Virus record (IMG/VR): IMGVR_UViG_3300022837_001356
Coordinates: 1-35,633 of that record
DNA from: a virus
Length of the DNA: 35,633 nt
Reading direction: 5' to 3' (one strand)
Part shown: piece by piece, positions 1,110 to 17,435 of the stretch
Layout: every line of letters starts with the position of its first letter
How positions within the stretch are numbered: the stretch's first letter is position 1
Notes under the pieces: generated by a model
Told to the model about the DNA's origin: nothing
The model's database searches: none
The model's input: the letters and a program-made list of their open reading frames with translations, nothing else
Made by a program: the position numbers and the translations under genes

Positions 1110-1439
1110 TTATTCATCACCAAAAGGAGTATATCCTTCTTCTGAATCGTCATATTCTTGGGGGTTTCGGAGTTGTTGTCCTGAGGAGTTGTAGTAATAT
1201 TCACCATCAAACCATTCGTAACTATCTGAGGGTGGGTAATATTTTTCTTCCATGTTAGATGTATCAAATTCGTCATACTCCCCATCGTATTCAACTTCCC
1301 CTCTATCTGCTTTATCAAACCATTCTTCTTCTTCTACTTGTCCAAAATCCCCAGCATCCATACGATCTTCTAAATCATCATCGGGTTGGGGGGTTTTTAC
1401 TTCTGCTAAGTATTTTCTAAATGCTGTTAATTCTTTCAT
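1110..1439 (-). CDS. Small acidic protein with processing-type leader
   Basis: This 109-residue protein is very acidic and rich in Y, D, E and G from residue 18 onward (for example EVEEEEWFDKADRGEVEYDG). I do not recognise a family. Its N-terminus, MKELTAFRKYLAEVKTP, resembles the MDNFDLRKYLAEGK leaders of other proteins in this window; the LAE at residues 11-13 fits the (L/I)-x-E head-protease rule. The low-complexity acidic body suggests a disordered internal or scaffold-like protein. It follows the smaller repeat-protein gene by 16 bases, and an AT-rich candidate promoter motif lies about 20 bases upstream of its ATG. Function unknown. Confidence 0.65.
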   Translation of the reverse strand: MKELTAFRKYLAEVKTPQPDDDLEDRMDAGDFGQVEEEEWFDKADRGEVEYDGEYDEFDTSNMEEKYYPPSDSYEWFDGEYYYNSSGQQLRNPQEYDDSEEGYTPFGDE

Positions 1440-1455
1440 TTTAGTTTTATTATAA

Positions 1456-1983
1456 TTATATATAAATATTACCTTTTACACTAGGTACCATTTGTTTGAT
1501 TTGTTCTTTACTATATTTTTCAGAGATGGGGGTATTAAGTAAATAAAGATCACCTCCTACTGTTAAGCCTTGGGGGAGGGAGGTTATTAGAGTATTTCTT
1601 AAATTAAGACTACCTCCTACTGTTAAACCTTGAGGTAGGGTGGTTATTGGGGTATTTCTTAAATCAAGAGAACCTCCTACTGTTAAACCTTGAGGTAGGG
1701 TGGTTATTGGGGTATTACTTAAATAAAGATCATCTCCTACTGTTAAACCTTGAGGTAGGGAGGTTATTGGGGTATTATTTAAATAAAGAGTACGTCCTAC
1801 TGTTAAACCTTGAGGGAGGGTGGTTATTGGTGTACTTGACAAATCAAGATCACCTTTACCTCCATCCTTCATGTATTGTTGAATCTTCTTTTGAGTAGCA
1901 ATTAAATAGTTCTTAGAGCGTTCTTCTTTGGAACGTCTAGGGACTAGGATTTTATTTTCTAATATGTCTATTAATTTTATCAT
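1456..1983 (-). CDS. Leucine-rich-repeat-like protein, short paralogue
   Basis: This 175-residue protein has three parts. A conserved head, MIKLIDILENKILVPRRS, runs through an IATQKKIQQYMKDG helix to about residue 47. Five 20-residue repeats of the form TPITTLPQGLTVGGSLDLRN follow. The cap, SEKYSKEQIKQMVPSVKGN, ends in IYI. The LPxxL..L.L pattern is that of YopM/LPX-type bacterial leucine-rich repeats, which fold as a solenoid and usually bind other proteins. Head and cap are nearly identical to those of the upstream neighbour, so the two are tandem paralogues with different repeat numbers. Its ATG overlaps the neighbour's TGA (ATGA), so translation is probably coupled. The early ILE at residues 7-9 fits the (L/I)-x-E leader pattern, but weakly. 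Function unknown. Confidence 0.8.
   Translation of the reverse strand: MIKLIDILENKILVPRRSKEERSKNYLIATQKKIQQYMKDGGKGDLDLSSTPITTLPQGLTVGRTLYLNNTPITSLPQGLTVGDDLYLSNTPITTLPQGLTVGGSLDLRNTPITTLPQGLTVGGSLNLRNTLITSLPQGLTVGGDLYLLNTPISEKYSKEQIKQMVPSVKGNIYI
1457..1470 (-). promoter_or_regulatory. Promoter-like AATATTTATATATA in repeat gene end
   Basis: The motif covers the last I-Y-I-stop codons of the short repeat protein and lies about 17 bases before the ATG at 1439. This is the spacing seen at other genes, so it may serve the small acidic gene. Confidence 0.3.
1545..1850 (-). repeat. Five 60-bp tandem repeats encoding LRR-like units
   Basis: Five 60-bp in-frame units (20 codons each) each contain TGTTAAACCTTGAGGTAGGG on the plus strand or close variants, encoding LPQGLTVGG. 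Unit length equals that of the repeats in the neighbouring longer gene. Copies differ at scattered positions, so they are diverging. Confidence 0.85.
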
Positions 1984-2870
1984 TTTATATAAATATCACC
2001 TTTAACTCCAGGTACCATTTGTTGAATTTGTTCTTTGCTATATTTTTTAGAAAGTGGGGTATTTCTTAAATCAAGATAACCTCCTACTGTTAAATCTTGA
2101 GGTAGGGAGGTTATTTTAGCCCGAGATAAATGAAGATTACCTCCTACTTTTAAATCTTGAGGTAGGGAGGTTATTGGGGTATCAGTTAAATGAAGATTAC
2201 CTCCTACTTTTAAACCTTGAGGTAGGGAGGTTATTTTAGCCCAAGATAAATGAAGATTACCTCCTACTTTTAAACCTTGAGGTAGGGAGGTTATTGGGGT
2301 ATCAGTTAAATCAAGATTACCTCCTACTTTTAAACCTTGAGGTAGGGAGGTTATTGGGGTATTAGTTAAATCAAGATTACCTTCTACTCTTAAACCTTGA
2401 GGTAGGGAGGTAATTGGTGTATCAGTTAAATGAAGATCACCTCCCACTGTTAAATCTTGAGGTAGGGAGGTTATTTTAGCCCGAGATAAATGAAGATTAC
2501 CTCCTACTTTTAAATCTTGAGGTAGGGAGGTTATTGGGGTATCAGTTAAATGAAGATTACCTCCTACTTTTAAACCTTGAGGTAGGGAGGTTATTTTAGC
2601 CCAAGATAAATGAAGATTACCTCCTACTTTTAACCCTTGAGGTAGGGAGGTTATTGGGGTATTTCTTAAATGAAGATTACCTCCTACTTTTAACCCTTGA
2701 GGTAGGGAGGTTATTGGGGTATCAGTTAAATTAAGATCACCTTTACTCCCATCCTTCATATATTGTTGGATTTTCTTTTGAGTAGCAATTAAATAATTCT
2801 TAGAACGTTCTTCAGGGGAGCGTCTTGTAACAAGTATTTTATTTTCTAATATGTCTATTAGTTTAATCAT
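1980..2870 (-). CDS. Leucine-rich-repeat-like protein, long paralogue
   Basis: This 296-residue protein has the same architecture as its downstream neighbour. After the head MIKLIDILENKILVTRRS it carries eleven exact 20-residue repeats. Two repeat types alternate: TPITSLPQGL with TD/TN/RN before it, and AKITSLPQGL with SW/SR before it. The cap is KKYSKEQIQQMVPGVKGDIYIK. Repeats 3-5 are almost identical to repeats 9-11, showing internal block duplication. LPxxL..L.L spacing indicates an LRR-like solenoid, a common protein-binding scaffold; the partner is unknown. The start overlaps the upstream gene's stop by one base (TAATG), implying translational coupling. I cannot tell whether it is an internal head protein, a fibre component or an effector. 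Confidence 0.82.
   Translation of the reverse strand: MIKLIDILENKILVTRRSPEERSKNYLIATQKKIQQYMKDGSKGDLNLTDTPITSLPQGLKVGGNLHLRNTPITSLPQGLKVGGNLHLSWAKITSLPQGLKVGGNLHLTDTPITSLPQDLKVGGNLHLSRAKITSLPQDLTVGGDLHLTDTPITSLPQGLRVEGNLDLTNTPITSLPQGLKVGGNLDLTDTPITSLPQGLKVGGNLHLSWAKITSLPQGLKVGGNLHLTDTPITSLPQDLKVGGNLHLSRAKITSLPQDLTVGGYLDLRNTPLSKKYSKEQIQQMVPGVKGDIYIK
1986..1996 (-). promoter_or_regulatory. Promoter-like ATATTTATATA within repeat gene end
   Basis: The coding-strand motif ATATTTATATA forms the codons for the final I-Y-I residues of the long repeat protein and lies 2 bases before the ATG of the short one. At this spacing it cannot serve that ATG as a standard promoter, so it may only be coding coincidence. 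Confidence 0.2.
2041..2750 (-). repeat. Eleven 60-bp tandem repeats with block duplication
   Basis: Eleven consecutive 60-bp units sit in perfect register, each with GGTAGGGAGGTTATT on the plus strand. Units at 2101-2280 reappear at 2461-2640 with about one mismatch, a 180-bp block duplicated at an offset of 360 bases. Two unit types (TTTTAGCC versus TGGGGTAT centres) alternate. The pattern is consistent with unequal exchange inside the array. Confidence 0.9.
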
Positions 2871-3619
2871 TATGAAATTCCTATTATATTAGTATATTCT
2901 TTTATATCGTTAGATGAAATTTGTTTATCTAACCCATCATACCCATCAATTCCCCCATTATCTAATACCGCCAAAGCAACAACTACTAAATTCTTCCAAG
3001 TTTTTGGAAATTTATCTTGAAGTTGATTTATCATTTGCTGTGACTTTACTTTAACATAATAAAAAGTTACATTATTTGTATAGTAATAATCATTAAAGTG
3101 ATCGGGGGCTTTATATGTTGTACACCATGAAGAATCTTTTCCACCATCCCCACAGTCTCTAAATGCAAATTGGGATAATCCAAGTTTACGAGATGCTTCG
3201 TGGGTGTGGGGGGACATTATTAATAGGTCTGAATTCTCTAATACAGTATCGTAGTCGGATTCTAATTCTTTGGTGGATATGTTTTCTCCGGCGTTGTTTA
3301 TTTGGTCAACTTCATCTTGAAGGGCTTTAAAGGATTTAATTTGGTAAATATCTTTGGTTTTTGTTTTACCTTTTTCTAAGAGTGTATTGAACTCTTCAAT
3401 GGTGTTTCTTAAATCGTCTATATCTGTAATTTGTTTTTCTACCCATTGTTTCGCCATCCACCCCACATACTTACGTGTTGGGGAAGGGTCTATATCAGTT
3501 AATATTTTTAACTCCTCTTGGGTTAGTTTATCTGAATCAACATATTGTTTGGCCTGTCTTATGTTTTCTAATATTGAATGTTTGTTTTCAATTAATAGTT
3601 TTGAATAATTAAATTTCAT
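2870..3619 (-). CDS. Phage protein with WCT-motif domain
   Basis: This 249-residue protein starts MKFNYSKLLIENKHSILE, where LIE (residues 9-11) again fits the (L/I)-x-E leader pattern. Residues about 20-110 are helical and charged. The more distinctive half runs from about 130 onward: SPHTHEASRKLGLSQFAFRD, then a segment with SSWCTTYKAPDHFNDYYY and a strand NNVTFYYVKV. I recall this 'S-x-E-S/A-x-x-LG ... WCT ... Y ... FYYV' pattern from other phage proteins of unknown function. That resemblance is from memory, not a search. A late segment, NLVVVALAVLDNGGIDGYDG, is hydrophobic but too short for a confident membrane helix. The gene is coupled to the downstream repeat-protein gene through TAATG. 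Function unknown. Confidence 0.7.
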   Translation of the reverse strand: MKFNYSKLLIENKHSILENIRQAKQYVDSDKLTQEELKILTDIDPSPTRKYVGWMAKQWVEKQITDIDDLRNTIEEFNTLLEKGKTKTKDIYQIKSFKALQDEVDQINNAGENISTKELESDYDTVLENSDLLIMSPHTHEASRKLGLSQFAFRDCGDGGKDSSWCTTYKAPDHFNDYYYTNNVTFYYVKVKSQQMINQLQDKFPKTWKNLVVVALAVLDNGGIDGYDGLDKQISSNDIKEYTNIIGIS

Positions 3620-3658
3620 ATTGTTGTTTTTTATATAATATGTTGACTATTGAATAGG

Positions 3659-4372: not shown

Positions 4373-4378
4373 GTTTTA

Positions 4379-4759
4379 TTATAATTTAATAATGTTCATA
4401 TTTGGGTATAAGTGGGCACTTTTTGAACCTTTAATATACACCGTATTTTCTATGGGGAAATCTAAAGGAACTTTTTTTCCTTCAAATATACCGAAATATC
4501 CTAAATCTGTTTCCCTTAAAATCTTTAAATCTTTTTTATTTTCTACTTCTAAAATACCACGAGAGTACATATAACGAGCTTCAGCCCATAAGTTAAAATA
4601 TTTAGGTGAACCCACACGATGTAGTGTGTCTGTTAATGGTTTATTAGCGTATATGTAGCGCTGTATATCATTAGATAATATACCACGAGGGGCTTTATTT
4701 TCATTAAGTTTTAACGTGGGTTTTTCAGTTCCACAAGTATCACATCCACAGTTACACAT
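4379..4759 (-). CDS. Small protein with N-terminal cysteine cluster
   Basis: The 126-residue product opens with MCNCGCDTCGTEKPTLKLNE, placing four cysteines in nine residues (positions 2, 4, 6 and 9). These could bind a metal ion. The remainder includes LSNDIQRYIYANKPLTDTLH and a basic and aromatic middle (FNLWAEARYMYSRGILEVEN), with no domain I recognise. LNE at residues 18-20 fits the (L/I)-x-E pattern, so the Cys cluster might be a removable leader; that is speculative. The ATG follows the upstream stop by 7 bases, with AT-rich sequence between. Function unknown. Confidence 0.6.
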   Translation of the reverse strand: MCNCGCDTCGTEKPTLKLNENKAPRGILSNDIQRYIYANKPLTDTLHRVGSPKYFNLWAEARYMYSRGILEVENKKDLKILRETDLGYFGIFEGKKVPLDFPIENTVYIKGSKSAHLYPNMNIIKL

Positions 4760-4766
4760 ATTTATT

Positions 4767-5968: not shown

Positions 5969-6475
5969 TTACCAAGCTTTACAAGACCAATATCTTGCCA
6001 TTGTTTTAGGTCCGGGAGAATCACAATTAAATCGTGATCTAAATGCTTTTCTACGTTTTGGGTTAGATTTTCTAATACTCATAGTTGGACGTTTTGCAGA
6101 TGTACCACCATGTCCAAAATTTACTTTTTTTACTTTAATAGAACCATCAGCATTTTTCTTACCTGAGTTGACATATACTTTAAATTTTTTACTATCACCT
6201 CGTGTTGGTTTGTTTAATATAACTGTTTTACCTTGGTATTTTGCTTCTGTAATATTTTCATCAATGATTTCCATTTCCATTAATTCATTAATGTCCATAT
6301 CTTCTTCCATAGGTACACAATTATCAACGGTTTTACCACCTTTCTTTTTTGTGCCTACTAATTTATATCCTTTCCAACATGCTTTTCCATCTATTCCCTT
6401 AAGTTTTTCATCTATTTCACCTTCACTTAATAGTTTACCTTCAGCTAAGTATTTCCTTAAATCGAAATTATCCAT
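5969..6475 (-). CDS. Tagged protein with basic C-terminal RYWSCKAW domain
   Basis: The 168-residue protein starts MDNFDLRKYLAEGKLLSEGE, the clearest form of the leader shared with the genes at 9014-9430 and 16443-17435. It contains two (L/I)-x-E-G sites (LAE-G at 12/13, LSE-G at 18/19). Next comes CWKGYKLVGTKKKGGKTVDN (residues about 33-52), a short basic, glycine-rich patch, then an acidic stretch. The C-terminus is strongly basic: MSIRKSNPKRRKAFRSRFNC, ending in KTMARYWSCKAW. This Arg/Lys- and Cys-rich ending recurs in phage proteins, in my memory, and looks nucleic-acid binding. I infer a capsid-packaged DNA-associated protein. The gene ends 68 bases before the next start; 23 bases separate it from the gene upstream. 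Confidence 0.75.
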   Translation of the reverse strand: MDNFDLRKYLAEGKLLSEGEIDEKLKGIDGKACWKGYKLVGTKKKGGKTVDNCVPMEEDMDINELMEMEIIDENITEAKYQGKTVILNKPTRGDSKKFKVYVNSGKKNADGSIKVKKVNFGHGGTSAKRPTMSIRKSNPKRRKAFRSRFNCDSPGPKTMARYWSCKAW

Positions 6476-6498: not shown

Positions 6499-6933
6499 TT
6501 AAATTTCTACGTCTGGTATATCATCTATTTCAACATCATCTCCTTCCCCGGTTTCAGCCGTATCCTCTGATTTTGGTCCATATCGTAATATACGAGATAT
6601 TGCTAACGTTGCTCTTTCCTCTTCAGGTAGGTTTAATAGATAATATTTTTTACCCTCTACTTGAGCTATCCAACTTCTCCTAGAATATATTAGATAGAAT
6701 TCTTGGTCGTTTTTTAAGTTGATTCTAAATGTGGTGGGTTTAGGAGAAACCCAATCTATGGAAGAGAGGAATGAATCAAAATCTGACGTTAACAGATCGA
6801 CTATAATCGATTTTAGTTCAGGGAATTTTGTAAGTTCATCGTATTCAACGGCCGCTATATCAGATTTCTGTTGGGATTTATATACAAGGGGCACAATTGA
6901 CTTAATTTTATCCCTTAGTTCTACCTTTGTCAT
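6499..6933 (-). CDS. Hypothetical protein with acidic tail
   Basis: This 144-residue protein has an N-terminal helical region (MTKVELRDKIKSIVPLVYKS) and a central alpha/beta segment (TTFRINLKNDQEFYLIYSRR, then WIAQVEGKKYYLLNLPEEER). It ends in an acidic tail of about 25 residues (EGDDVEIDDIPDVEI). I recognise no family. Its opening only loosely resembles the KSELKEMIKS-type leader. The ATG lies inside the last 26 bases of the upstream 626-residue gene, so the two are likely coupled in translation. The acidic tail resembles scaffold or chaperone-like phage proteins, but the function is unknown. Confidence 0.7.
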   Translation of the reverse strand: MTKVELRDKIKSIVPLVYKSQQKSDIAAVEYDELTKFPELKSIIVDLLTSDFDSFLSSIDWVSPKPTTFRINLKNDQEFYLIYSRRSWIAQVEGKKYYLLNLPEEERATLAISRILRYGPKSEDTAETGEGDDVEIDDIPDVEI

Positions 6934-8788
6934 TTTGCAATAGTTTTTCGTTATTTATCAGATCAATTATATCCTTAATTTTATCTCTTTCGGGGTGAGC
7001 TTCTAATCTATCTTCTTCTTTAGCTTTAGCCCATTCCTCTTCAGACATTCCTTCATTTGTATCTCTACTTACCATCAATCTTTTAGCTAATTTTTTAGCA
7101 ACTGATTCAAAGGTTGGTGAATTATGTTTGGGGATTGGATTTAGAGTATCAACTGCGATATCAATTTTAGGTTCATTAATTTCAAAGTCAAGATAGTGTT
7201 TTGCACCAACTATTGCTGTTTTAGCATTTGTTATTTTTGCTTGCCACCATGATGGAAAATCAACTTCCCCTTCACCTTCAAACCCATCAACCATGTTATA
7301 CAATTCCATAGCATATTTTCCAATACGATATAAATCTGCTTTTAACATATGTGGTTCATTGTCTTCGTGGCCTAAATCTAAGTCTTCGTTTAAATCATCT
7401 TGTTTAACCCAAAATGTATCTAATTTACCTAATATAGCTGAAGGTTCGTTACGACGAATATAAATTCTGTCGTCTTCACGTCTTACTACTTCATGGTCTT
7501 CACCATTATATTTTACAATTTCTGATTTGTTTTCGTTTAAACCATATTTTAAATTTGACTTAAAAATATCACTCATACCAGAACTTTGTTCTACAGCATT
7601 TTTAATTTCTTGTAATACTTGACCCACAGTCATTTTTCTACTAACCATATTTTCTATGGCTCTAGTAATCATTTGTCTGTCTCCGTCAATAGCACCTTCG
7701 TTTAAACCTTTAGATATTTCATCTTCATCCTCATTGTAATCTTCAACCACCATATTTCCAACTATTTTTTTAATTGCTGAAACTAATGTATCAATATAAT
7801 TTGGATCTTTTTTACTTCGGACACTAACTGAGTATGCTCCCTTTTGGGTTAAAATCAAAATAAATTGACCGTTTTTAATTCCAATATCAAAGTAGTTATG
7901 GGTAAATTGCATTGTTTTATTTAATTCCAACCCAACCTGAACTGTTAATTTTGGTAACGTTTGTGATGATTGTGATGTTTTTATCCCCAAGGGGATTGTA
8001 ACCTTATTACCTTCAGTAACTAATTCTTCATTTAAACCATCATAGTTTTGTTTTCTTAGTACTTGCGTAATAGCGTAGACAGCATCCTGTAATGAGTAGT
8101 CGTACATATCTGCTAATTTTCTTACAAACCCATTTACCAATCTATCTAATTCAGGGTTAACATTCTCATTCATATTATATCCAGTTTTAGAGGATAGTTT
8201 TAAACCTTTCTTTTCAGCATATTTTTGTGCTTCTAAAGGTGAGTCGAATATCATGTCAATTTGAGCTGAACCATTTGGTTTTTCTAACACGTATGAGGGT
8301 ATAGCTTTACTACCTGTTTTAGATATCATTACTTCATCTCCAACCTCACCCATATATTCCTCAATTGATTTTGTTTGTTTTTTATACTTAGATAGTAAAT
8401 TAGCTATTTTGTCATCTTTCCCAACCATTGTATTAATTTGACTAGGTTCTAATTTTCTACCATAGTATTTTTCTATTTGATTTTTGAGGTCTTTAAGTTG
8501 AGAGGGTTCGTTTACTTCTATTTTACGTTCCTCAAGATTTTCATTTTGGGTTTTATTTAAATCGGCTTTTTTAGGGTTCATTAGAGAGGATTTAATCATC
8601 TCTTTTAGTTTTTCGTTATTCATTGATTTTGTTTGTTTTTTAGCCTGATTTGTTGCTCTACCATACATCACAGCTTCAGCATCCTTACCATACTGTTTTA
8701 CTAAAGCACGTTTATTACCCTTCATATTCATAATGATATCTTCGCGTTTTGCTAATTCAGTTTTGGTAAGTTTGCGTTCGTTAAGCAT
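6908..8788 (-). CDS. Modular 626-aa internal-type protein with LNE joints
   Basis: The protein is a mosaic. A basic N-terminal part (MLNERKLTKTELAKREDIIM) contains YGKDAEAVMYGRATNQAKKQ, then a second leader-like stretch, MNNEKLKEMIKSSLMNPKK. A middle part holds a SPLEAQKYAEKKGLKLSS-type domain. A C-terminal module reads DLDLGHEDNEPHMLKADLYR ... YAMELYNMVDGFEGEGEVDF ... WWQAKITNAKTAIVGAKHYL, which I recall as a recurrent helical module of phage proteins. Segments are separated by repeated LNE motifs (GLNEELVTEG, GLNEGAIDG, GLNENKSE, DDLNEDLDL), matching the (L/I)-x-E cleavage rule at likely domain borders. I infer a virion-internal protein that may be cut into pieces. The module functions are unknown. 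A virion core or scaffold role is possible. Confidence 0.75.
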   Translation of the reverse strand: MLNERKLTKTELAKREDIIMNMKGNKRALVKQYGKDAEAVMYGRATNQAKKQTKSMNNEKLKEMIKSSLMNPKKADLNKTQNENLEERKIEVNEPSQLKDLKNQIEKYYGRKLEPSQINTMVGKDDKIANLLSKYKKQTKSIEEYMGEVGDEVMISKTGSKAIPSYVLEKPNGSAQIDMIFDSPLEAQKYAEKKGLKLSSKTGYNMNENVNPELDRLVNGFVRKLADMYDYSLQDAVYAITQVLRKQNYDGLNEELVTEGNKVTIPLGIKTSQSSQTLPKLTVQVGLELNKTMQFTHNYFDIGIKNGQFILILTQKGAYSVSVRSKKDPNYIDTLVSAIKKIVGNMVVEDYNEDEDEISKGLNEGAIDGDRQMITRAIENMVSRKMTVGQVLQEIKNAVEQSSGMSDIFKSNLKYGLNENKSEIVKYNGEDHEVVRREDDRIYIRRNEPSAILGKLDTFWVKQDDLNEDLDLGHEDNEPHMLKADLYRIGKYAMELYNMVDGFEGEGEVDFPSWWQAKITNAKTAIVGAKHYLDFEINEPKIDIAVDTLNPIPKHNSPTFESVAKKLAKRLMVSRDTNEGMSEEEWAKAKEEDRLEAHPERDKIKDIIDLINNEKLLQNDKGRTKG

Positions 8789-9013: not shown

Positions 9014-9430
9014 CTACTTTTTAGAAATACCCATCATCCTTAGATATTCTTTTCTATTTTTATCTTGATCAATAGTATTTCCGGGGTTGATGAAATCATC
9101 TGACTCATCATCACCAAACTCTTTAAGTTTTTTATCTCTTAATTTGTTAACCCCCTCAATGATGCTATCTATAAATTTGTTAATATCTTCTTTATTTTCA
9201 AATTCACTATGCATCATATCATCCTCAATCTGATCAATAAGATATTTAGAATTTTGATCTACAATGTAATCATCGGAGTTTTCTTTAATTTTGTTTTTAG
9301 CTTCGTAAGCAGCTTTAATACCCTCTAGTGTTGGTAATGCTTCGCCTTGTTTTCTTGTGTCGTATCCAGGTGAATTTTCTTTTAGTAGCGTTCTTGCACT
9401 AACGAATTTTTTTAAATCGAAATTATCCAT
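9014..9430 (-). CDS. Tagged helical protein, MDNFDL leader
   Basis: The 138-residue protein starts MDNFDLKKFVSARTLLKENS; its first six residues match the genes at 5969-6475 and 16443-17435, and LKE at residues 16-18 is the probable cleavage site. The body is helical and charged (KQGEALPTLEGIKAAYEAKN; DNKFIDSIIEGVNKLRDKKL). It ends DQDKNRKEYLRMMGISKK, a C-terminal motif like the FKKLAGIIK end of the neighbour at 9457-10173. No enzyme motif is visible. I infer a small packaged internal protein. The gap to the upstream gene is 26 bases, most of it a TTTAT pentamer repeat (35 bases in total, running into the upstream gene's end). Confidence 0.75.
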   Translation of the reverse strand: MDNFDLKKFVSARTLLKENSPGYDTRKQGEALPTLEGIKAAYEAKNKIKENSDDYIVDQNSKYLIDQIEDDMMHSEFENKEDINKFIDSIIEGVNKLRDKKLKEFGDDESDDFINPGNTIDQDKNRKEYLRMMGISKK

Positions 9431-9465
9431 TTTATTTTATTTTATTTTATTTTATTTTATTTTAT
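9431..9465 (-). repeat. TTTAT pentamer repeat before a tagged gene
   Basis: Seven perfect TTTAT units on the plus strand (AAAAT direction on the coding strand) fill most of the gap between two genes, extending into the stop region of the upstream gene (AAATAA). It is the immediate leader of the ATG at 9430. It may have arisen by slippage and may tune translation by keeping the leader unstructured. Confidence 0.8.
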
Positions 9466-10173
9466 GATCCCTGCTAGTTTTTTAAACCTAATAGACTCAG
9501 ATAAATCTTCTTCCTCATTAACACCACTTTCATCTACTCTTGCAATATGTGCTCTAGTAAAATATGTAATTGTATTACCAATTTGATCTGTTAGTTTTTC
9601 ATCTCCAAGTTTAGTTGCTTCTTCTTGAGCTTTCATTAATAAACCTTGAATTACTTCTTCGCTTTCGCTTTCGCCTGGCATAGATGTTTCAATTTCAATA
9701 TCTGTTTCTTTGTCATCGATTTCTTCATCTTTTTCAATGTCAACATCTATATCTTCATCTTCTACATCTGCGTCTTTAGCTTCATTAAAACCATGAAAAT
9801 CATGTTCTGGGTAACTTAAATTATCCTCAATATATTGAGATTTAACCTGCCATTCTTTCTTTGAACGTCCATCACCCCCCCAAGTTTCATCAGTAAATGG
9901 GATGTTTTTACTAAGCAATAATCTTTCTAAAAAGGGCCAATTGGCTCTAGCTGTACCATCCTTTAATGTCCATTTAGCTACAAAACGTAAGTCACCACTT
10001 GGATCAGGATCATTTGCACCAGCACGTATTGGTTGGATGTTGAAGTTCTTACTTTCTAACATATCAATATCTTCTTGGGATAAAAGACCAACATCTTCGC
10101 CTTCTTTAATTGATTTTTTAGCTTCATCTAACATAGCAGACTTGATCATTTCTTTTAATTCTGATTTTTTCAT
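9457..10173 (-). CDS. Tagged acidic protein, KSELKEMIKS leader
   Basis: The 238-residue protein opens MKKSELKEMIKSAMLDEAKK, a second leader type shared with residues near 83 of the 626-aa protein and with the small protein at 33534-33884. LDE-A (15-18) and IKE-G (22-25) both fit the prohead-protease rule. A folded part around residues 40-125 contains AKWTLKDGTARANWPFLERL and a GGDGRSKKEW segment. A very acidic linker follows (KDADVEDEDIDVDIEKDEEI), then a helical tail ending ESIRFKKLAGIIK. The FKKLAGIIK ending resembles the YLRMMGISKK end of the next gene. An AT-rich promoter-like motif lies about 25 bases upstream. I infer a virion-internal protein; its activity is unknown. Confidence 0.75.
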   Translation of the reverse strand: MKKSELKEMIKSAMLDEAKKSIKEGEDVGLLSQEDIDMLESKNFNIQPIRAGANDPDPSGDLRFVAKWTLKDGTARANWPFLERLLLSKNIPFTDETWGGDGRSKKEWQVKSQYIEDNLSYPEHDFHGFNEAKDADVEDEDIDVDIEKDEEIDDKETDIEIETSMPGESESEEVIQGLLMKAQEEATKLGDEKLTDQIGNTITYFTRAHIARVDESGVNEEEDLSESIRFKKLAGIIK

Positions 10174-10224: not shown

Positions 10225-11250
10225 TTATACCAGAAATGCTTTAATAGCTGGATATGTATTCATCATCGCTTCATCACCTTTAGCTATACCTTTTAATGAG
10301 GCAACACCTGCTTTGAACCAACTGGCGTTGGATAAACTACTTATAGCTTCAGTACCATAACCAACAGCCATGCTCATGATTATAACGGCATAAATTGCTT
10401 GGGTTGTGTTTTCTAATTTAGTTGGGTCTTTTATAAAGAATTTTAAAACACGTTTAATTGGTGCTTGAAATGCTTTTTCGTTATCGTGAGTCCATTTTTG
10501 GATTTTTTGGGCGAAATCTTCACCTTTTTCCCATTTGAACTTCTTCATCAACTTAGCTGTAACTTTAGAAATGAAACCAATAAGTGCATTACCTGTTAAA
10601 ACAGCAACAATTATTGATGTTACAACGGCTTCGTCTAATTGTTCTTTATCGCCTTGTTTTGATTTTAACTCTTTACCTAAAGTAGCTGCAATACCATTGG
10701 CTGCCGCTATTAATTCAGCATCGAATGCTTTCTCTTCAGTTCCATTGTCTTCAAATTCATTTAATGATTCTCCAACTAATTTAACATCGCTTTCATGGTA
10801 GGATTTTTTATTCACTACTACGAATGAACCCTTTTTATCTGTTACTTCACCACTACCCCCACCATAGGATTTATCAATTTTTCCTTCAACTTTTAATTTT
10901 GATGGATTAGTTTTGTTATTAGATTCAACTAACTTATGTAATTCCCTAATTAGAGGTCCAGCTATTGAAAATAATTTGGGACTTTTTTTAGAATTATCAC
11001 CTTTAAGGTTTTTAATTAAACCTTGAATTGAGTCTATAACGTCTAAGATTTCGGAATTTGAGACTTTTGACCCATTTTCAGTTATTTTATGTTTTTGGAT
11101 TAAATGCCTTAAATCAATATTAAATTCTGTATCTGGGTCTATTGTGATATCATCATTATCATGATCTTGTTTTTTCCCCTCATCTATTCGAGGTGTATTT
11201 TTTACTAATGGTTTAGAAAAGAATTCTTGTATTTTTTTAATATCTTTCAT
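10225..11250 (-). CDS. Tagged membrane protein with three LxE sites
   Basis: This 341-residue protein starts MKDIKKIQEFFSKPLVKNTP, followed by RIDE-G (E24/G25), an ideal (L/I)-x-E-G site. The first half is hydrophilic with a KVEGKIDKSYGGGSGEVTDK stretch. Around residue 206, QLDE-A gives another site and is followed at once by a hydrophobic helix (VVTSIIVAVLTGNALIGFIS). A second helix (AIYAVIIMSMAVGYG) lies near residues 283-300, and SLNE lies near residue 164. Cleavage at QLDE would free a membrane-active C-terminal half of about 135 residues with two helices. This is inference. It might help DNA pass the inner membrane during injection, or be a host-modifying protein. The gene is coupled to the upstream one by TAATG. 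Confidence 0.7.
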   Translation of the reverse strand: MKDIKKIQEFFSKPLVKNTPRIDEGKKQDHDNDDITIDPDTEFNIDLRHLIQKHKITENGSKVSNSEILDVIDSIQGLIKNLKGDNSKKSPKLFSIAGPLIRELHKLVESNNKTNPSKLKVEGKIDKSYGGGSGEVTDKKGSFVVVNKKSYHESDVKLVGESLNEFEDNGTEEKAFDAELIAAANGIAATLGKELKSKQGDKEQLDEAVVTSIIVAVLTGNALIGFISKVTAKLMKKFKWEKGEDFAQKIQKWTHDNEKAFQAPIKRVLKFFIKDPTKLENTTQAIYAVIIMSMAVGYGTEAISSLSNASWFKAGVASLKGIAKGDEAMMNTYPAIKAFLV

Positions 11251-11759
11251 TATTTATTAAATTTTATGCGTGGGTAGTAAAGTCTTTCCCCTGGATCTTC
11301 ATCAAAGTCACTTTGGGATTGGTCTCTATCTACAGTATAACCTTTATCTTCAATAAATTTGATCATACTTTCGAATCCAATATCATCAATATCTCCCCTT
11401 GTGTGGATGGTTATATGACCTGTATTATAAGGACTATAAAAATTAGAAGATGCTCTTACGCCAAATTTATTTGAGAATTCACTTTCCATATCAGAAATAC
11501 CTGCTTCTTCATTTAAGGACTCATTTATGCCTAACTCAGCATGTAATACTTCCATAAATGGGTTAATGTTATGGGAACCATAATTTTCTTTAAGGACAAA
11601 AGCTACGGACTGGGCAAAGTCTTTATATGACATTGAATCATCAATAGAAATTATAGCATTATTAATAAGTTGAGCTAATTCATTAGCTTGAGTTATATTT
11701 TCTCCACCTTCTATGAGGTATTGTTTTCTAAACCACCCAGTAACATTGAAATCTTCCAT
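11250..11759 (-). CDS. Tagged hypothetical protein
   Basis: The 169-residue protein starts MEDFNVTGWFRKQYLIEGGE. It is a diverged form of the MDNFDLRKYLAEG leader: 'DF' at residues 3-4, 'RKQY' aligned with 'RKY', and LIE-G at 15-18 as the cleavage site. After it comes a helical region (INNAIISIDDSMSYKDFAQS) and an alpha/beta C-terminal part with SPYNTGHITIHTRGDIDDIG and IKFIEDKGYTVDRDQS. No catalytic motif is recognised. SLNEEAG near residue 81 offers a second LNE joint between the two halves. The gene is preceded by an AT-rich promoter-like motif and coupled (TAATG) to the membrane protein gene downstream. Function unknown. Confidence 0.7.
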   Translation of the reverse strand: MEDFNVTGWFRKQYLIEGGENITQANELAQLINNAIISIDDSMSYKDFAQSVAFVLKENYGSHNINPFMEVLHAELGINESLNEEAGISDMESEFSNKFGVRASSNFYSPYNTGHITIHTRGDIDDIGFESMIKFIEDKGYTVDRDQSQSDFDEDPGERLYYPRIKFNK

Positions 11760-12373: not shown

Positions 12374-12782
12374 TTCTATATTTTTTTAATAAATTTCTTA
12401 TTTCTTCTATTTTATCTTTCCCAAAGAAAGTCTCAATTGTATCTACCATATCGGCTAAATCCTCTAATTTTGCTGTTTGAGATAAATTATTTTGACGTTG
12501 TTGGATTTCACCATCTAATGTTTCTTTTTGAGTTTTCAAACTTAAAAATGATTCACTGTATTCTGTTACCTTAATACTTAAAAGTTGTTGTAAATCAGCT
12601 ATAAGGGATTGTATATCCTCGGGCATTAATCTACCACTACTATATAAATCTTTAACTACATTTGTTAACCCTTTAATATCTACGGGTGTATATGGGGTTC
12701 CCTCATTTTTTACTGAATTTTCACTTCTGGCTCTAGGTGAACCACCTTTATACCCCCCATTTATTGAATTTAATTCACTCAT
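12366..12782 (-). CDS. Coiled-coil hypothetical protein
   Basis: The 138-residue protein has a flexible N-terminus (MSELNSINGGYKGGSPRARS) followed by long helical stretches. One of them (LADLQQLLSIKVTEYSESFL, then LKTQKETLDGEIQQRQNNLS) looks like a coiled coil. No catalytic motif is present. The ATG overlaps the end of the 1223-aa polyprotein gene by 4 bases, and its own end overlaps the zinc-ribbon gene by 8 bases, so three genes form a tightly coupled set. A structural or chaperone role is plausible; the function is unknown. Confidence 0.65.
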   Translation of the reverse strand: MSELNSINGGYKGGSPRARSENSVKNEGTPYTPVDIKGLTNVVKDLYSSGRLMPEDIQSLIADLQQLLSIKVTEYSESFLSLKTQKETLDGEIQQRQNNLSQTAKLEDLADMVDTIETFFGKDKIEEIRNLLKKYRNV

Positions 12783-15700
12783 AATCCTAGTTCTTTTAAT
12801 TGTCTGATTGTATCAGATGCTGTTATGTGTAATATACCAATCCCGTTTTGTGAGCGCCATTGATCTATATTTGAGGGTCTGTCATCAATTAAGATTCTAT
12901 TTTTTTGGGCATAGTTTTGTTTATCTTTAGCTTGTGCTAATATTAATTTGGTACCCGGTAAGTTATTCTTAACCCATAAGCGTTTACCTAAACGTGAAGT
13001 TGGAGATGAAGATGGGGATGATAGTAGAATTGGATTGTATTTTTTAATATAATCCCAGTATTCTTTACCATCAGACATCCACGGCATCTTGACCCAATAC
13101 CCCACACCTGAGGAATTTATTAAGTCCCAAAAACCCTTTCTACTGAAATTTTTTTGATATTCTGAGGGGAGTACACCATTTGATAGTTCTATAAAGGAAG
13201 CATCAAAATCTGTTAAAACACCATCCATATCACTATAAATTTCGTAGTCCATATCTTTATCTTGTTCAAATAATGGTAAAGATAATGACTTTCCTCTGCT
13301 TCTCCAAATGTCTAATATGATGTTTTTTTCTTCTTGTGTAATTGTTTCTTGGTTAACAAATATATCTAAATAATCATCTATAACATCTTTAAAGGGAAGT
13401 TTTGATTTTTTAGCTTTAAAATACAAGCCTTGAAGCATTGCATCTACTTCTTTTTCTAATTTGAAATATTGTGATTTAGGTAGCATTTCAGCATCAATTA
13501 AATCTCTTACTAATGTATCATCCTCCATGTACTTACCGGAGTGTTGGTTGTAGCCCTCTTGAGTCAAATGTTCAAGTTCATGTCTAACAACATCTTTAAT
13601 ATCAAATGATATTTTCTGCCAATCTGGGTTTTTGGGTATTTTAAATTTAACTGACAGTAATGGAGTTATTTCATCCCCTTCATCATCAAACCCAGCATTT
13701 GCTCCCCCATCTACTTTATATTCATCATCTGTAATTTCTACATAACCCTCAAAATCGAAGAAAAAATCTTTAGATGGAATATCATGTTCGTCTTCGGGGT
13801 GGTCTACTCTAAACTTAAATGAGCCTTCTTTATCTCCTCTACCATAGATGTCCTTAAATGCTTTAAAGGTAATTGATGATAATTTATTTGTTAATGTATC
13901 GTATCGACCTTCGTTTATAACTTCTTCAGCTATTTCTCTAGCAAATTGATTTAAACCAAAGGGGTCTTTACCTAATTTTTTGTCAAAGCCTTCATCTAAT
14001 GGGGTATTATTATACCCACATTTATGACAAATGTATAAATCATCCCCACCATCTTTTATGTCCCAAGACCAATCACAATTATCACATTCGATTTTATCGC
14101 CTACGATTGCTTCTTCTAACCCTGTTGTTAATCCACGAGCATAAGCATTTAAACCAAATGGATCTTTATTTAAAGTTGAGGTGTGTTCATTTTCTCTAAC
14201 TAGTTTATGGTAAAATTCACTTCCAACCTTTATAATGTGTTCTTGTTCCTCTTTAGTTAATAAAGAACCCTTAGTTATAAGTTTATCAACTTGAGATTTG
14301 TTAGGGTTATAGAATTCATAGTTGTAGAAATTATTTTCGGGTTCCCATATTTCACTTTCGTTTGGGAAATGGGTTGCAAACTTCTCATCTCGAGGTGTTA
14401 ACTTGACAACTTTAATGTTTGGGTTAATACCTTCTATAAACTTTTCCCATACAGTCTGTGCTTCCTGTTCTGTATTACCGTTACGGTCAGATCTTAGGGG
14501 TTTAGGGTATACATAAGCCATCCCCAACTCATACATTAGAGGACCATATCCCTTCTTAGCTGCTACCCCAGTAACTTCGTTTTGGTAAACGTTGATATGA
14601 CCTAAGGATTCTTTGGTTACAGTATCATATAAATCTAAAGCATTATCTTCTCGAGATAATACTACAACCATACCATCAGTCACAGATTGCATTACCTCTT
14701 TTAAATTACCTACATCATCTAAGCCGGTAACACACTTACATGCATAGTTGTATTTTTCGTTTAATGATTTTCCTCTAGCAACTACCCCTAATACTTTTCT
14801 GGCATTATCATCTAAATCGGATGGTTTAATAATTTTAGCCGGTATTGTTTTGGCTTTTGATCTTAGTGCTTTTTGTGCTCTATGGTTACCATCTAAAATC
14901 CACAATATACTTCCATCTTCATCCGCCATAATTAAGATAGGGTATTGGTTAGAGACTTCAACTTGCGCTATTCTTTCTATTTCGGTGGGGTTATCATCCC
15001 AATTTAAAACTATTTTAGATAATTTTTCTGTAGGGTAATTTTTTTGAGGGATGTTTTTAGTTAAATCTAACACATTCTGTAAGGTTAAAGTACCGCCTTC
15101 GAAATCAATCCATTCAGTATCTGCTCCTATTTCATTTAAGTTATCAGTGAATTTTTTACCATCTGGGGTTTGTTCTTTACTTGGGATGATTTTATATTTA
15201 AAAGTTTTTGCAAAATCATACATAACAGTCCCAACACCTTTTCTCCACCAATTGGGTTTTACTGAAGTATCTGATGACGATAATATTTTTGGATTATTTG
15301 TTTCGTCTGATGTAAAGTATGCTGCTCCTATTTTATTATCATCTTTATCAAACGCCGTTATATTTAAACTACCATAAGAAAGCATGAATTTATCAACTTT
15401 TAAAGTAATAGTTTCTCCTGTTTTTAATGTATATTTTTTTGTTTGATCTAATGATTTTTTAAAGATATTTTCATCTAAACTATCAGTCCAATTCCTAAAT
15501 GTCATTGTACCTTTTAAATTAGCTTCTGCTTCAATATCGTTTAAATGATCGTCTTCCATTGTATTTGTACCACCTATATCGCCTAACCTATTTTCTAAGT
15601 TTTGGATATGGTGTATCATTTCATGTGCAAATGAGCGTACTATATCCTTAGGATGGCGCCCTTCAGTGTATAATGTGATGGTGTTGTTGTTCTGGTTATA

Positions 15701-16450
15701 ATACGCGGTTTTACCGAGAAAATCCCGGGCATTGTCACTATCCCCATCTACAAATTTAACTTTAGGTAAAGGTTCAATGTTGTAACCCTTATTTAACATA
15801 TGTTGGGTTAGTTGCATTATTTTACCCTTAATATCTATCTCTTTACCATATGTAGCATTTTCGTTTAAATTTGAAGCTAATTCTTCATAGGTTACATTTA
15901 AACCCAATGGATCTTTATTTTCATCTAATGGTGGTTTTACAATGTCATATACTTCTTCTTTTTCACTATCACTTAGTTCTGATGGTAGGTATTTGATAAA
16001 GTCATTATATGATACTTGGGATGCTTTTCTAGCATTAGTACCACTAACCCCCGTGTTAGGGTTTGTAATAAGCTTAATTTTCATATTTGGGTATTTTTCT
16101 TCTATACCCTTACTACGTCTGCTTAATTCAGCAGCATCATCTTCATCTCCTTCACGAGAACCTATTACAAAATATATTTCATCTTGGGGGTTGTTTTTCC
16201 CCAAACGAATAATGTCACCAATTGGACCTTTAGAGGGCTGAATTTGCACCTTCATTGGAAGGTAAGTTTGAAAAATCTCCCAAATCAATATAGATTGTGC
16301 CTGATTAATATTATCACGCTCTTTCTCCCCAACATATATAATAAATTCTTCAATTTCGGGGAATTTATCTAGTGTTTTTTTTACTACTTCAAAATGACCT
16401 ACTGTAGGTGGTTTAAAACCACCACCATATACCGCTAATAATCTACCCAT
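12779..16450 (-). CDS. 1223-aa multi-enzyme polyprotein (nucleotidyltransferase to HAD)
   Basis: Domains in order: a nucleotidyltransferase fold with GGGFKPPTVGH at residues 9-19 (GxFxPxxxGH type) and GVSGTNARK near 137, like NMN adenylyltransferases. Next comes an HExxH metalloprotease-like motif (H276-E277-M-I-H280), then an acetyltransferase-like WWRKGVGTVMYDFAK near 401. A ParB/sulfiredoxin-like DGNHR follows at 520-524, with another GNAT-like segment near 640. A zinc ribbon has Cys 789, 792, 808 and 811. A second HExxH lies at H957-E-L-E-H961. A C-terminal HAD phosphatase-like domain (DMDGVLTDFD at 1074; LIDDRPSN near 1188) resembles 5'-deoxynucleotidase. KDP(F/L)GLN recurs at 179, 762 and 828, and LxE sites (LDEN, LNEN, SLNE, LEEA, LDEG, INEG) mark joints. 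I infer a packaged, cleaved polyprotein; the enzyme activities are unproven. Confidence 0.75.
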   Translation of the reverse strand: MGRLLAVYGGGFKPPTVGHFEVVKKTLDKFPEIEEFIIYVGEKERDNINQAQSILIWEIFQTYLPMKVQIQPSKGPIGDIIRLGKNNPQDEIYFVIGSREGDEDDAAELSRRSKGIEEKYPNMKIKLITNPNTGVSGTNARKASQVSYNDFIKYLPSELSDSEKEEVYDIVKPPLDENKDPLGLNVTYEELASNLNENATYGKEIDIKGKIMQLTQHMLNKGYNIEPLPKVKFVDGDSDNARDFLGKTAYYNQNNNTITLYTEGRHPKDIVRSFAHEMIHHIQNLENRLGDIGGTNTMEDDHLNDIEAEANLKGTMTFRNWTDSLDENIFKKSLDQTKKYTLKTGETITLKVDKFMLSYGSLNITAFDKDDNKIGAAYFTSDETNNPKILSSSDTSVKPNWWRKGVGTVMYDFAKTFKYKIIPSKEQTPDGKKFTDNLNEIGADTEWIDFEGGTLTLQNVLDLTKNIPQKNYPTEKLSKIVLNWDDNPTEIERIAQVEVSNQYPILIMADEDGSILWILDGNHRAQKALRSKAKTIPAKIIKPSDLDDNARKVLGVVARGKSLNEKYNYACKCVTGLDDVGNLKEVMQSVTDGMVVVLSREDNALDLYDTVTKESLGHINVYQNEVTGVAAKKGYGPLMYELGMAYVYPKPLRSDRNGNTEQEAQTVWEKFIEGINPNIKVVKLTPRDEKFATHFPNESEIWEPENNFYNYEFYNPNKSQVDKLITKGSLLTKEEQEHIIKVGSEFYHKLVRENEHTSTLNKDPFGLNAYARGLTTGLEEAIVGDKIECDNCDWSWDIKDGGDDLYICHKCGYNNTPLDEGFDKKLGKDPFGLNQFAREIAEEVINEGRYDTLTNKLSSITFKAFKDIYGRGDKEGSFKFRVDHPEDEHDIPSKDFFFDFEGYVEITDDEYKVDGGANAGFDDEGDEITPLLSVKFKIPKNPDWQKISFDIKDVVRHELEHLTQEGYNQHSGKYMEDDTLVRDLIDAEMLPKSQYFKLEKEVDAMLQGLYFKAKKSKLPFKDVIDDYLDIFVNQETITQEEKNIILDIWRSRGKSLSLPLFEQDKDMDYEIYSDMDGVLTDFDASFIELSNGVLPSEYQKNFSRKGFWDLINSSGVGYWVKMPWMSDGKEYWDYIKKYNPILLSSPSSSPTSRLGKRLWVKNNLPGTKLILAQAKDKQNYAQKNRILIDDRPSNIDQWRSQNGIGILHITASDTIRQLKELGL

Positions 16451-17435
16451 TGATGAAAGAATTAAATTTTAATTTAATATCGGATTCTGGGGTTGGTTCG
16501 GTAATTTCTTTAAATTTTGAGGATGTTAATTTATCTACAATACCTTCTAAGTCTTCATTATAACCCACATCATTTCGTAGTTGGGTATTTTGTGCAGATT
16601 TAAGATTTTTTTCTAAACGTTCGTAACCCGGGTTTGAGGAGGATTTTTCATATTCTTTTTCAAATGACTTTTGAATAGTTTTTAAAAGATCCATATCTTT
16701 CTTTTCATCGAATGAGGTTTGGGGTAGAGCTTCATTGAATGCTATTTCTATTTCTTCATCTTTAAATGTAAAATCTTTTGAGAAGGAGGATTTAAATTGA
16801 TCAACATTGTCTGATGATAGTTTTTCTAAATATTGTTTTAAGCTTTCTTTACCCCCAGCAACGGCTTTATCAAATTCTTGGATTTGTTTATCATACCCCG
16901 GGATTGTATTTTTAATAAACACAAAATTCTCCCCAAATATTTTTCTGTAATCCTCTATATTACTATAAACTCCTTCCCATGTTTTTATAACTGCATTTAG
17001 GGGGAGTGTTCTTTCTCTTTTAGTATTTTGAAGAATAGAAATTATGGGGTGGGTATAAACCATAGCCATAAATTTATCATATCCTGGCATTTGAGATGAT
17101 GTGTTTTTAACATTAGCTGCTGTTGTGTCCCAAATTATATTTTCACTTTTATTTTGAGCATCTTGGAATATTCCTCTAAATTCCCCCATGGCTGCACCTA
17201 AAGATAAACCTTTTTTTTCTACTAAATCATCGGGGTTCATATATTTAAACTTTAAATCTGAACCCTTAGGGGTAAAAATTCCAGTTTTATCATCTAAATC
17301 TCCTAATAAATTTTTAATTACGTATGACTTACCAACACCCGCACCACCAGCTAATATAATACCTTTAGGTTTACCTTCCACCTCTTTCAATAAACGGCCT
17401 TCTACCATATATTTTACCAAATCAAAGTTATCCAT
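16443..17435 (-). CDS. Tagged P-loop kinase, zeta-toxin-like
   Basis: The 330-residue protein starts MDNFDLVKYMVEGRLLKEVE, the shared leader with LKE at 16-18 as probable cleavage site. It then reads KGIILAGGAGVGKSYVIKN, giving a Walker A motif (GGAGVGKS, residues 30-37). Further on, NIIWDTTAANVKN near residue 99 supplies the acidic residue and 'DTT' expected after Walker A in zeta-toxin and polynucleotide-kinase-like phosphotransferases. A basic segment (NTKRERTLPLNAVIKTW) could be the substrate-binding arginine region. The rest is helical. The likely activity is transfer of phosphate from ATP to a small molecule or nucleic acid; the substrate is unknown. Its stop overlaps the start of the polyprotein gene by 8 bases, and an AT-rich promoter-like motif lies just upstream. 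Confidence 0.78.
   Translation of the reverse strand: MDNFDLVKYMVEGRLLKEVEGKPKGIILAGGAGVGKSYVIKNLLGDLDDKTGIFTPKGSDLKFKYMNPDDLVEKKGLSLGAAMGEFRGIFQDAQNKSENIIWDTTAANVKNTSSQMPGYDKFMAMVYTHPIISILQNTKRERTLPLNAVIKTWEGVYSNIEDYRKIFGENFVFIKNTIPGYDKQIQEFDKAVAGGKESLKQYLEKLSSDNVDQFKSSFSKDFTFKDEEIEIAFNEALPQTSFDEKKDMDLLKTIQKSFEKEYEKSSSNPGYERLEKNLKSAQNTQLRNDVGYNEDLEGIVDKLTSSKFKEITEPTPESDIKLKFNSFING

Follow-up and report, generated by a model that had tools for sequence, protein, structure and literature searches.

A phage fragment with leader-bearing proteins and a polyprotein

The IMG/VR record IMGVR_UViG_3300022837_001356 is a 35.6-kb fragment of a phage genome, which we analyzed over its whole length of 35,633 nucleotides (the window). 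Our subject is a block of its genes that encode candidate virion cargo: proteins with short, similar N-terminal leaders, and a chain of several enzyme domains. The window holds baseplate genes similar to gp25 and gp6 as well as genes for a primase and an exonuclease, and the cargo block comes after these. A sequence-only reading of the window had listed the leader-bearing open reading frames (ORFs) and proposed that their starts act as capsid-targeting tags. We found these ORFs and starts at the positions given for them, every one on the minus strand, as are all window features for which we give coordinates. That reading had missed the ORF at 12779-16450, a 1223-amino-acid (aa) enzyme polyprotein with a beads-on-a-string layout and LxE motifs at its junctions, itself candidate virion cargo. 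The window's cargo proteins are present in identical or near-identical copies in two further IMG/VR records (L013 and L059). By tblastn, the best annotated relative is Flavobacterium phage immuto (160 kb, Baltic Sea, host Flavobacterium sp. LMO8). Its gene order is similar to the window's (gp25, gp6, primase, exonuclease, polyprotein, nucleotidase), and it also encodes terminase, gp20, an S77 prohead protease (PF03420), a scaffold-like gene and gp23 (PF07068).

Three window proteins begin with a leader of the MDNFDL type. In ORF 5969-6475 (leader at 6422-6475, start MDNFDLRKYLAEGKLLSE) the candidate sites are LAE12 and LSE18, each followed by G; ORF 9014-9430 (9377-9430, MDNFDLKKFVSARTLLKE) has LKE18 only; and the leader of ORF 16443-17435 (17382-17435, residues 1-18, MDNFDLVKYMVEGRLLKE) is predicted to be cut after E18. 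The proposal that such leaders end in (L/I)xE held for the first of these. In the second it failed at the first site, where residues 10-12 read VSA, but held through LLKE ending at residue 18, and in the third, residues 10-12 read MVE. ORF 16443-17435 encodes a zeta-toxin-like P-loop kinase (Pfam Zeta_toxin, E = 1.2e-5, 25.3 bits against a cut-off of 22.3), whose gene lies under 1 kb upstream of the polyprotein in 77 of the 84 loci with both genes.

Other leaders in the window are diverged or of different types. ORF 11250-11759 (11709-11759, start MEDFNVTGWFRKQYLIEGG) has the diverged leader MEDFNVTGWFRKQYLIE followed by G, with related MDNFNITKWNRNRYL starts in L200 and L201, and ORF 1110-1439 (1401-1439) has the leader MKELTAFRKYLAE. 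A KKSEL-type leader opens ORF 9457-10173 (10123-10173, start MKKSELKEMIKSAMLDEA), where LDE17 is followed by A. A third type, MKDIKKIQEFFSKPL leading to RIDE and then G, opens ORF 10225-11250 (11179-11250, start MKDIKKIQEFFSKPLVKNTPRIDEG), and similar starts occur in L130 and G011. Finally, the leader MIKLIDILE opens two LPQGL-repeat proteins, at 1456-1983 (leader 1957-1983) and 1980-2870 (leader 2844-2870, start read from the sequence). Their genes adjoin (1456-2870), their starts are near-identical (MIKLIDILENKILV), and their LPQGL(T/K)VGG repeats look leucine-rich-repeat-like by eye.

Leaders are widespread and portable

We scanned IMG/VR with a leader pattern that demanded xEG at residues 11-13. 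MDNFDL-type starts (type A) were found at least 163 times, in at least 118 stretches and on at least 146 distinct proteins. Among the matches listed, 142 distinct leader-bearing proteins measure at least 60 aa; single-linkage clustering (E 1e-3) sorts their bodies into 46 families. A second site, [LI]xE ending at residues 15-20 and outside the search pattern, is present in 103 of the 119 distinct leaders among the matches listed, against 74 of 1164 equal-width windows deeper within those proteins. Some bodies recur behind other LxE-ending leaders. The window kinase reads MDNFDLVKYMVEGRLLKE followed by VEGKPKGII, and relatives begin MISLVQLLNE followed by VQGKPKAII; an MTSLVKLLNE leader occurs too. 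The DFKNP body occurs behind MDNFDLKKYLAEGKLFEE and also behind MKELYRFRQFLAE. The latter is similar to the leader of ORF 1110-1439 and swaps with MDNFDL on one body, and MIKLIDLLNE (G015 = L142, L155), similar to the leader of the LPQGL-repeat proteins, swaps with MDNFDL on another. The idea of a portable tag on unrelated bodies is well supported by this number of body families and by the alternative leaders. Starts of the KKSEL type occur in at least 120 IMG/VR stretches. In one protein (G015 51515-52615, L218), two tandem copies of a diverged leader stand at the start (DNFDLYSWNKNRYLEKE...KDFDLREWNKKRYLGE).

It could be argued that the shared starts are a mere translation or recombination cassette, and that LxE comes from E-rich helical N-termini. 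Short leader genes do lie in tandem, six of them at G015 61961-64979, in a recombination-prone layout. However, the leaders diverge synonymously. Between those of ORFs 5969-6475 and 16443-17435, 8 of the 18 codons show synonymous differences and 5 show non-synonymous ones, so the peptide is under selection and the pair is no fresh DNA duplication; the remaining two MDNFDL pairs differ by 1 synonymous and 8 non-synonymous codons and by 6 and 7. The motif is also found at internal junctions, which are not gene starts, and its controls there and inside the cargo, given below, speak against a cassette as well. We regard this explanation as very improbable.

Genome position and the prohead protease

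If the leaders are T4-like propeptides, a complete genome should hold a gp21-type protease, and immuto has one (PF03420, E = 6.9e-36; a partial protein, E = 4.3e-21). The S77 family is present in 14 of the 26 larger records picked for leaders or polyprotein, immuto included, and in 11 of the 16 picked for KKSEL leaders. The 35.6-kb window gave no PF03420 match, but the search was equally silent on control genomes. In L203, immuto and L213, leader genes directly follow the protease gene on its downstream side, three of them consecutively in L213. In another contig (G031 122029-123549), the S77 match falls in two pieces within one 570-aa frame, as with an intein or other insert.

The sequence-only reading had asked whether leader-plus-LxE starts are equally frequent among replication genes, and in immuto they are not. 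Among proteins of at least 60 aa, [LI]xE ending at residues 7-30 is found in 21/28 genes of the head-side block (102-126.9 kb, window-homologous and head-core genes) and in 46/184 elsewhere (odds ratio 9, p = 5e-7). By region, the latter are 31/127 (1-75 kb, the replication genes), 9/27 and 6/30. As to control motifs in the block, LxK is raised too (15/28) and LxD is not (4/28). In three contigs of ~112-122 kb, a regular expression found 13 type-A starts, 12 of which are located beside gp21 or in the interval separating the polyprotein from gp21-23. The major capsid proteins themselves have (I/M)LENQAKQ(I/L)VxE ahead of the conserved domain in 4/4 cases, with V at P3.

The polyprotein and its junctions

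The window polyprotein, which we cut by eye into eight segments with boundaries near LxE sites, begins directly with D1 (residues 1-176; 15923-16450), a HIGH-superfamily adenylyltransferase (NadD/PPAT-like). NCBIfam matches to D1 are far below their cut-offs, and the assignment comes from Foldseek with the L123 model (NadD 8aih, E = 5e-6; PPAT 1b6t, E = 5.9e-6). A junction module DPLGLN...LNE (residues 180-197; 15860-15913), with a predicted cut after E197, leads to D2, the first HExxH domain (199-328; 15467-15856). D3 (329-440; 15131-15466) is an unassigned segment, with boundaries set by eye, that ends in LNE and is found only in the window's own virus. D4 (441-565; 14756-15130) also ends in LNE, is ParB-like (PHROG 17560, E = 1.4e-7; phrog_1033, ParB-like, E = 0.0045) and occurs in L124 as well. 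D5 (566-757; 14180-14755), shared with L158 and with no library match shown, we take by eye to be GNAT-like. The junction module DPFGLNAYARGLTTGLEE (763-780; 14111-14164) is followed by D6 (782-821; 13988-14107), a four-cysteine Zn ribbon by the cysteine pattern in its sequence, which ends in LDE before G. The next module, DPFGLNQFAREIAEEVINE (829-847; 13910-13966), has a predicted cut between E847 and G and precedes D7, the second HExxH domain (848-1056; 13283-13909). Last, E1062 of LPLFE (13265-13267) marks a predicted cut ahead of D8 (1063-1223; 12782-13264), a 5'(3')-deoxyribonucleotidase by phrog_2643 (E = 6.5e-20) and by Foldseek with the L123 model.

Relatives of the polyprotein are encoded in 253 IMG/VR stretches, of which 80 loci were kept. 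The segments are matched in 127 ORFs in 28 orders (four of them single-segment, some ended by contig ends) and are reshuffled among relatives, as in D1-D2-D7-D8, D1-D2-D6-D8, D1-D7-D2, D1-D6-D2-D6-D7-D7-D8 or D8 alone. D8 is a separate gene in immuto (gp087) and others; in immuto it stands behind MKKVMGNLADLLLEE, whereas in the window it is fused behind LPLFE. When D8 forms an ORF by itself (20 cases), the start contains LxE in 14. A leader (such as MNQLTKFLVDGILNE followed by G) precedes D1 in 58 of its 71 distinct starts, and all 58 leaders hold [LIVMF]xE. The window polyprotein is without this MNxLxKxLVxGILNE-type leader.

The junctions are where the motif is concentrated. In 74 dereplicated chains of at least two segments, [LIVMF]xE is present at all 203 neighboring-pair junctions. 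Our main count used 157 junction windows, all of which hold the motif, against 784 of 5398 same-length windows inside domains (14.5%); per residue, it occurs at 6.9% in junctions and 1.08% in domain interiors. This count omitted 46 of the 203 pairs: in 16 the alignment of the following segment began past residue 12, and in 30 the gap had fewer than 8 residues. The motif is present here too, somewhere in the gap in 16/16 and within the 12 residues ahead of the following segment in 30/30. The window's own copy (L059), with its boundaries set by eye, supplies 7 of the 203 pairs (4 counted, 3 with short gaps); without it, 153/153 junction windows hold [LIVMF]xE. The strict [LI]xE is found in 121 of 150 distinct junction windows against 44 expected from shuffles. 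The controls [LI]xD (10 observed, 15 expected) and [LI]xK (39 and 35) are not raised in this way, which speaks against E-rich N-termini as the source of the motif. Before D7, whatever the preceding domain, all 39 distinct contexts have L, M, I or V at P3, E at P1 and G at P1', with a variable P2. DPFGLNxYARELAxGLEE and GKAAPYGSGYKKLNE are recurrent junction modules.

An AlphaFold2 (AF2) model of the 784-aa L123 polyprotein (27 sequences, mean predicted local distance difference test score [pLDDT] 75.8, predicted template modeling score [pTM] 0.35) shows D1, D7 and D8 with confidence, D2 moderately well and D6 poorly, and its linkers are unstructured; an AF2 pLDDT of 84 was obtained for D7. All seven junction [LIVM]xE sites lie in or at the edge of segments with pLDDT <50, and the other five lie inside confident domains.

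Two more window proteins have a similar layout. The 626-aa protein at 6908-8788 is a second candidate polyprotein, with recurrent modules from residues ~204 and ~464, by MNE208 and LNE468; its alignments of at least 35 residues start 55 times in bin 0-5, 12 times in 204-209 and 53 times in 456-473. ORF 10225-11250 encodes a two-module protein of 341 aa, whose module from residue ~165 (LNE165) is also encoded on its own, after different starts, in L153, L020, L057 and immuto. The modules beside all three of these sites recur elsewhere with different neighbors or behind leaders.

HExxH is retained in 89/89 D2 segments and 53/53 D7 segments of at least 80% coverage, and this raises the question of whether the chain cuts itself. 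In that case it would be a polyvalent protein released by its embedded zincin-like HExxH domains before or after injection, and the prohead protease would not be needed at the junctions, much as Iyer et al. propose for metallopeptidase (MPTase) domains (PMC5512222). For D7, Foldseek gave no significant match in the PDB, with weak neurolysin-type matches only (E = 0.1). Against self-cutting, the 14 stand-alone D8 ORFs with LxE-containing starts have no HExxH partner in the chain, and the motif is identical to that of T4 gp21 substrates. We consider self-cutting unlikely, also in view of the avoidance pattern below.

Avoidance of LxE inside the cargo

Cargo that meets the protease is expected to have folded parts without exposed sites. 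Across 265 dereplicated cargo sequences (leader bodies and domain cores), [LI]xE occurs 280 times against 504.4 expected, an observed-to-expected ratio (O/E) of 0.56 (z = -12.0). Other L/I-to-E spacings of 1, 3, 4, 6 and 8 are at 1.00-1.01, with spacing 5 at 0.89 (z = -1.7), and control replication and tail proteins are at 1.14 and 0.90. This specificity for L/I at position -2 of E, with non-head proteins not equally depleted, counts against the cassette explanation. By P3 residue, the depletion is 0.60 for L, 0.53 for I, 0.54 for M, 0.74 for V and 0.80 for F. Neither [LI]xD nor [LI]xQ is depleted, and AxE and SxE both stand at 1.06 of expectation, so the cargo does not follow a phiKZ-like AxE/SxE motif.

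Counting one vote per family, with a bootstrap over families, gives 0.53 (0.37-0.71) for the 46 type-A leader families and 0.41 (0.22-0.60) for seven polyprotein domain families, for which LxD is at 1.30 and 1.36. The avoidance is thus about equal in the two sets and therefore points to a trans-acting protease of the same specificity rather than to self-cutting. The 67 KKSEL-only families are at 0.83 (0.64-1.03), which is not significant; the proposed KKSEL leader type is accordingly present at its window start but weakly supported as a class. By sign, 83 of 120 families are below expectation and 35 above.

The same data bear on a different possibility, namely that processing in the prohead yields core filler or assembly factors, comparable to T4 gp67 and gp68, and not enzymes for delivery. 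Their genes adjoin gp20-gp23. One family, KKSELK...VIFEEGVLSGIITEV (24 proteins with that N-terminus, in L235, L238, L244, L271 and others), is LxE-rich, with 51 sites against 17.5 expected in its 27-member cluster, as a protein meant for degradation would be; the degraded core proteins of T4, gp22, gp67 and gp68, jointly have 24 sites against 10.2 expected. This family is perhaps a core protein destined for degradation. The cargo bodies as a set, in contrast, avoid the motif and should therefore survive intact. They also keep enzyme-like motifs (HExxH; DxDGV in 76/77), and their body families are very diverse, unlike assembly factors. We think it improbable that the cargo is core filler. As a separate matter, we dropped the identification of the LxE-rich family with the gp25 neighbor at window 33534, as none of its 24 proteins has a gp25 or gp6 match at a distance of up to 1.5 kb.

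Comparison with T4 and other packaged proteins

Capsid-targeting sequences and the packaged internal proteins (IPs) of T4 are textbook knowledge. Our motif scan of T4 returned IAE10 in IPII and IPIII, ITE19 in IPI, LTE65 in gp23 and LRE10 in gp24, all of which we take to be the mapped gp21 cuts. The three IPs have no site after residue 25 (about 2.5 expected), and ten T4 metabolic or replication proteins have 47 sites against 36.6 expected. Here, as with the T4 propeptides (IPI-IPIII and Alt), a short N-terminal leader ending in (L/I)xE precedes unrelated bodies, in a genome with gp20-gp21-gp22-gp23. T4 has four such proteins, whereas here, among the matches listed, one leader type alone is found on the 46 body families, several leader types are exchangeable, and domains are also joined in polyproteins with internal sites. 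A T4 review (PMC9026906) gives 10 residues for the IPIII capsid-targeting sequence and 10-19 for IP propeptides, ascribes targeting mainly to residues 4 and 7 and processing to residues 8 and 10, and calls the targeting sequence a possible route for loading various proteins into T4-like phages. It also reports that Asp at position 10 inhibits processing, which agrees with the avoidance of LxE, and not LxD, in our cargo.

The multidomain polyvalent proteins described in 2017 by Iyer et al. are predicted to be packaged and injected, although for the published family injection is mostly prediction. The authors attribute release chiefly to metallopeptidases within the chain and, for a limited set, to a C-terminal assemblin-like peptidase (PMC5512222). 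Like these proteins, our chains join disparate domains (HExxH, ParB-like, possibly GNAT), strongly reshuffled between relatives. They differ in that the junctions bear the motif of a separate prohead protease, and individual domains also occur by themselves behind putative propeptides. In the phiKZ-like phage SPN3US, several head proteins are cut after x-x-E by a T4-related prohead protease, and long propeptides are cut several times. However, the motif there is AxE, at 14 sites in nine proteins, and the cuts described in the available text remove propeptides and do not separate polyprotein enzymes (PMC5694885, PMC10052503); before D7, by comparison, P3 was L, M, I or V throughout. Phage P1 also has internal anti-restriction proteins, DarA, DdrB and Hdf, and the DarA N-terminus is reported to be cut by the prohead protease, but the part of the source available describes no shared portable leader or polyprotein (PMC12810830). 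We found no account in the open-access literature of enzyme polyproteins cut by a separate prohead protease at inter-domain sites, and no paper on the immuto virion proteome.

Evidence against processing and packaging

Several observations weigh against processing in the prohead and packaging of this cargo. S77 is absent from 12 of the 26 larger records, though those from IMG/VR may be fragments, and one type-A leader (G011 9044-9607, L228) lies outside the head block, in a metabolic region near a thymidylate synthase homologue. The window chain has no N-terminal leader to bring it to the prohead, which would fit self-cutting and sets it apart from T4 gp21 substrates; it is one of 8 leaderless chains among the 71 D1 starts, and 5 more have >60 residues ahead of D1. 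Six of the 20 stand-alone D8 ORFs have no LxE start (five begin directly with the domain, and one has a motif-free start).

At the junctions, [LI]xQ is raised as well (27 against 11 expected), and the window's own junctions are circular evidence because its segment starts were set by eye near LxE sites. A breakpoint test free of boundaries gives a weaker, though clear, excess of [LI]xE (563 of 1276 alignment ends against 5701 of 25520 random positions). As for avoidance, L/I seven residues before E is raised in the cargo (1.20, z = +5.4), D7 (20 against 98.3 expected) supplies much of the pooled domain signal, and neither the window's eight cargo bodies (28 against 25.4 expected) nor immuto's 20 candidates (57 against 61.8) are depleted, although several are multi-module. 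T4's own large packaged proteins do not show the signature: Alt, gp23* and gp24* are undepleted and six packaged proteins jointly have 17 sites against 17.5 expected, so LxE avoidance is no universal mark of gp21 substrates, which limits its use as a test. Finally, DPFGLNxYARELAxGLEE resembles DNFDLxKYLAEG, but a leader profile scored the linkers no higher than shuffled sequence (median best -2.2; reversed -7.2; shuffled 99th percentile 5.8), and for this reason we claim no common origin of leader and linker.

Other genes of the window

The sequence-only reading had also compared the start of window 33534-33884 with the leaders. Nothing in this analysis links the ORF to the cargo set: it adjoins gp25 in the baseplate cluster. 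Here and in immuto (81525-81944), a helical SELKKLIKEAVKEA-type protein with a leader-like start lies directly upstream of gp25. The baseplate cluster also holds an unusually long protein of 2450 aa (22381-29733), where immuto has one of 1265 aa. The small protein at 19196-19642 looks like a GIY-YIG protein by eye; a similar immuto protein in the matching place is annotated as "NAD synthetase," which looks like a misannotation. ORF 428-970 starts with MMVKLMQEKIVIVGAGVAGVNAATKLVDNGYP, which resembles the FAD-binding N-terminus of flavin-dependent halogenases or oxidoreductases, although the ORF is short for that family.

Interpretation and implications

The reading of the leaders as capsid-targeting tags is supported by their portability, by the S77 protease of immuto and by the head-side enrichment of LxE starts. 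We consider it likely that the S77 protease cuts leaders and junctions alike within the prohead, and that the products are packaged and then enter the host. The shared starts would be propeptides of the T4 internal-protein type, bringing unrelated cargo into the prohead core, and the S77 protease, a homologue of T4 gp21, would remove them after (L/I/V/M)-x-E. The 1223-aa chain, and probably the 626- and 341-aa proteins too, would be polyprotein cargo, with folded domains on disordered linkers ending in the motif, which the same protease would split into separate enzymes within the head. In leaderless chains such as the window's, the linkers themselves may do the targeting. Once freed, the enzymes would accompany the DNA into the host and work there on nucleotides, NAD or host proteins ahead of phage transcription.

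Portable leaders, LxE junctions, LxE avoidance, an S77 protease, a capsid-protein motif in relatives and predicted disordered linkers make up the sequence evidence, from which we infer that the cargo is cut, packaged and injected, as well as the activities of its enzymes. Of these steps, cutting has the best support. Packaging would follow because the prohead protease is bound to the prohead in T4, and by analogy the products are probably injected. The adenylyltransferase, zeta-toxin-like kinase, deoxynucleotidase, HExxH proteins and ParB-like domain suggest early action on nucleotides, NAD or coenzyme A (CoA) metabolites, and proteins. Packaged NAD-related enzymes have been argued for elsewhere (PMC9503650).

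A T4-like phage of marine bacteria thus appears to tag dozens of unrelated proteins with a short, removable tag, in what may be a new variant that joins traits of T4 internal proteins with those of polyvalent proteins. On balance, we lean toward a broader view, in which a large group of uncultured T4-like phages, probably infecting Bacteroidetes, encodes anti-host or nucleotide-handling enzymes as one ORF that the capsid-maturation protease cuts in the prohead. Since a cut site would come with every domain, their order would be freely reshuffled. With the tagged single proteins added, each virion would have a changeable, pre-loaded enzyme set, and LxE avoidance would make the cargo recognizable from sequence alone. 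The avoidance signature (L/I/M/V-x-E depleted, LxD and LxQ not) is a candidate test for packaged families in S77 genomes, and an isolate with a laboratory host, immuto on Flavobacterium sp. LMO8, makes the reading directly testable. If it is true, the polyprotein would be a phage counterpart of RNA-virus polyproteins, processed by the capsid protease, and many "hypothetical proteins" of marine phages could be placed in the virion and in the opening minutes of infection, the stage at which anti-defense proteins act.

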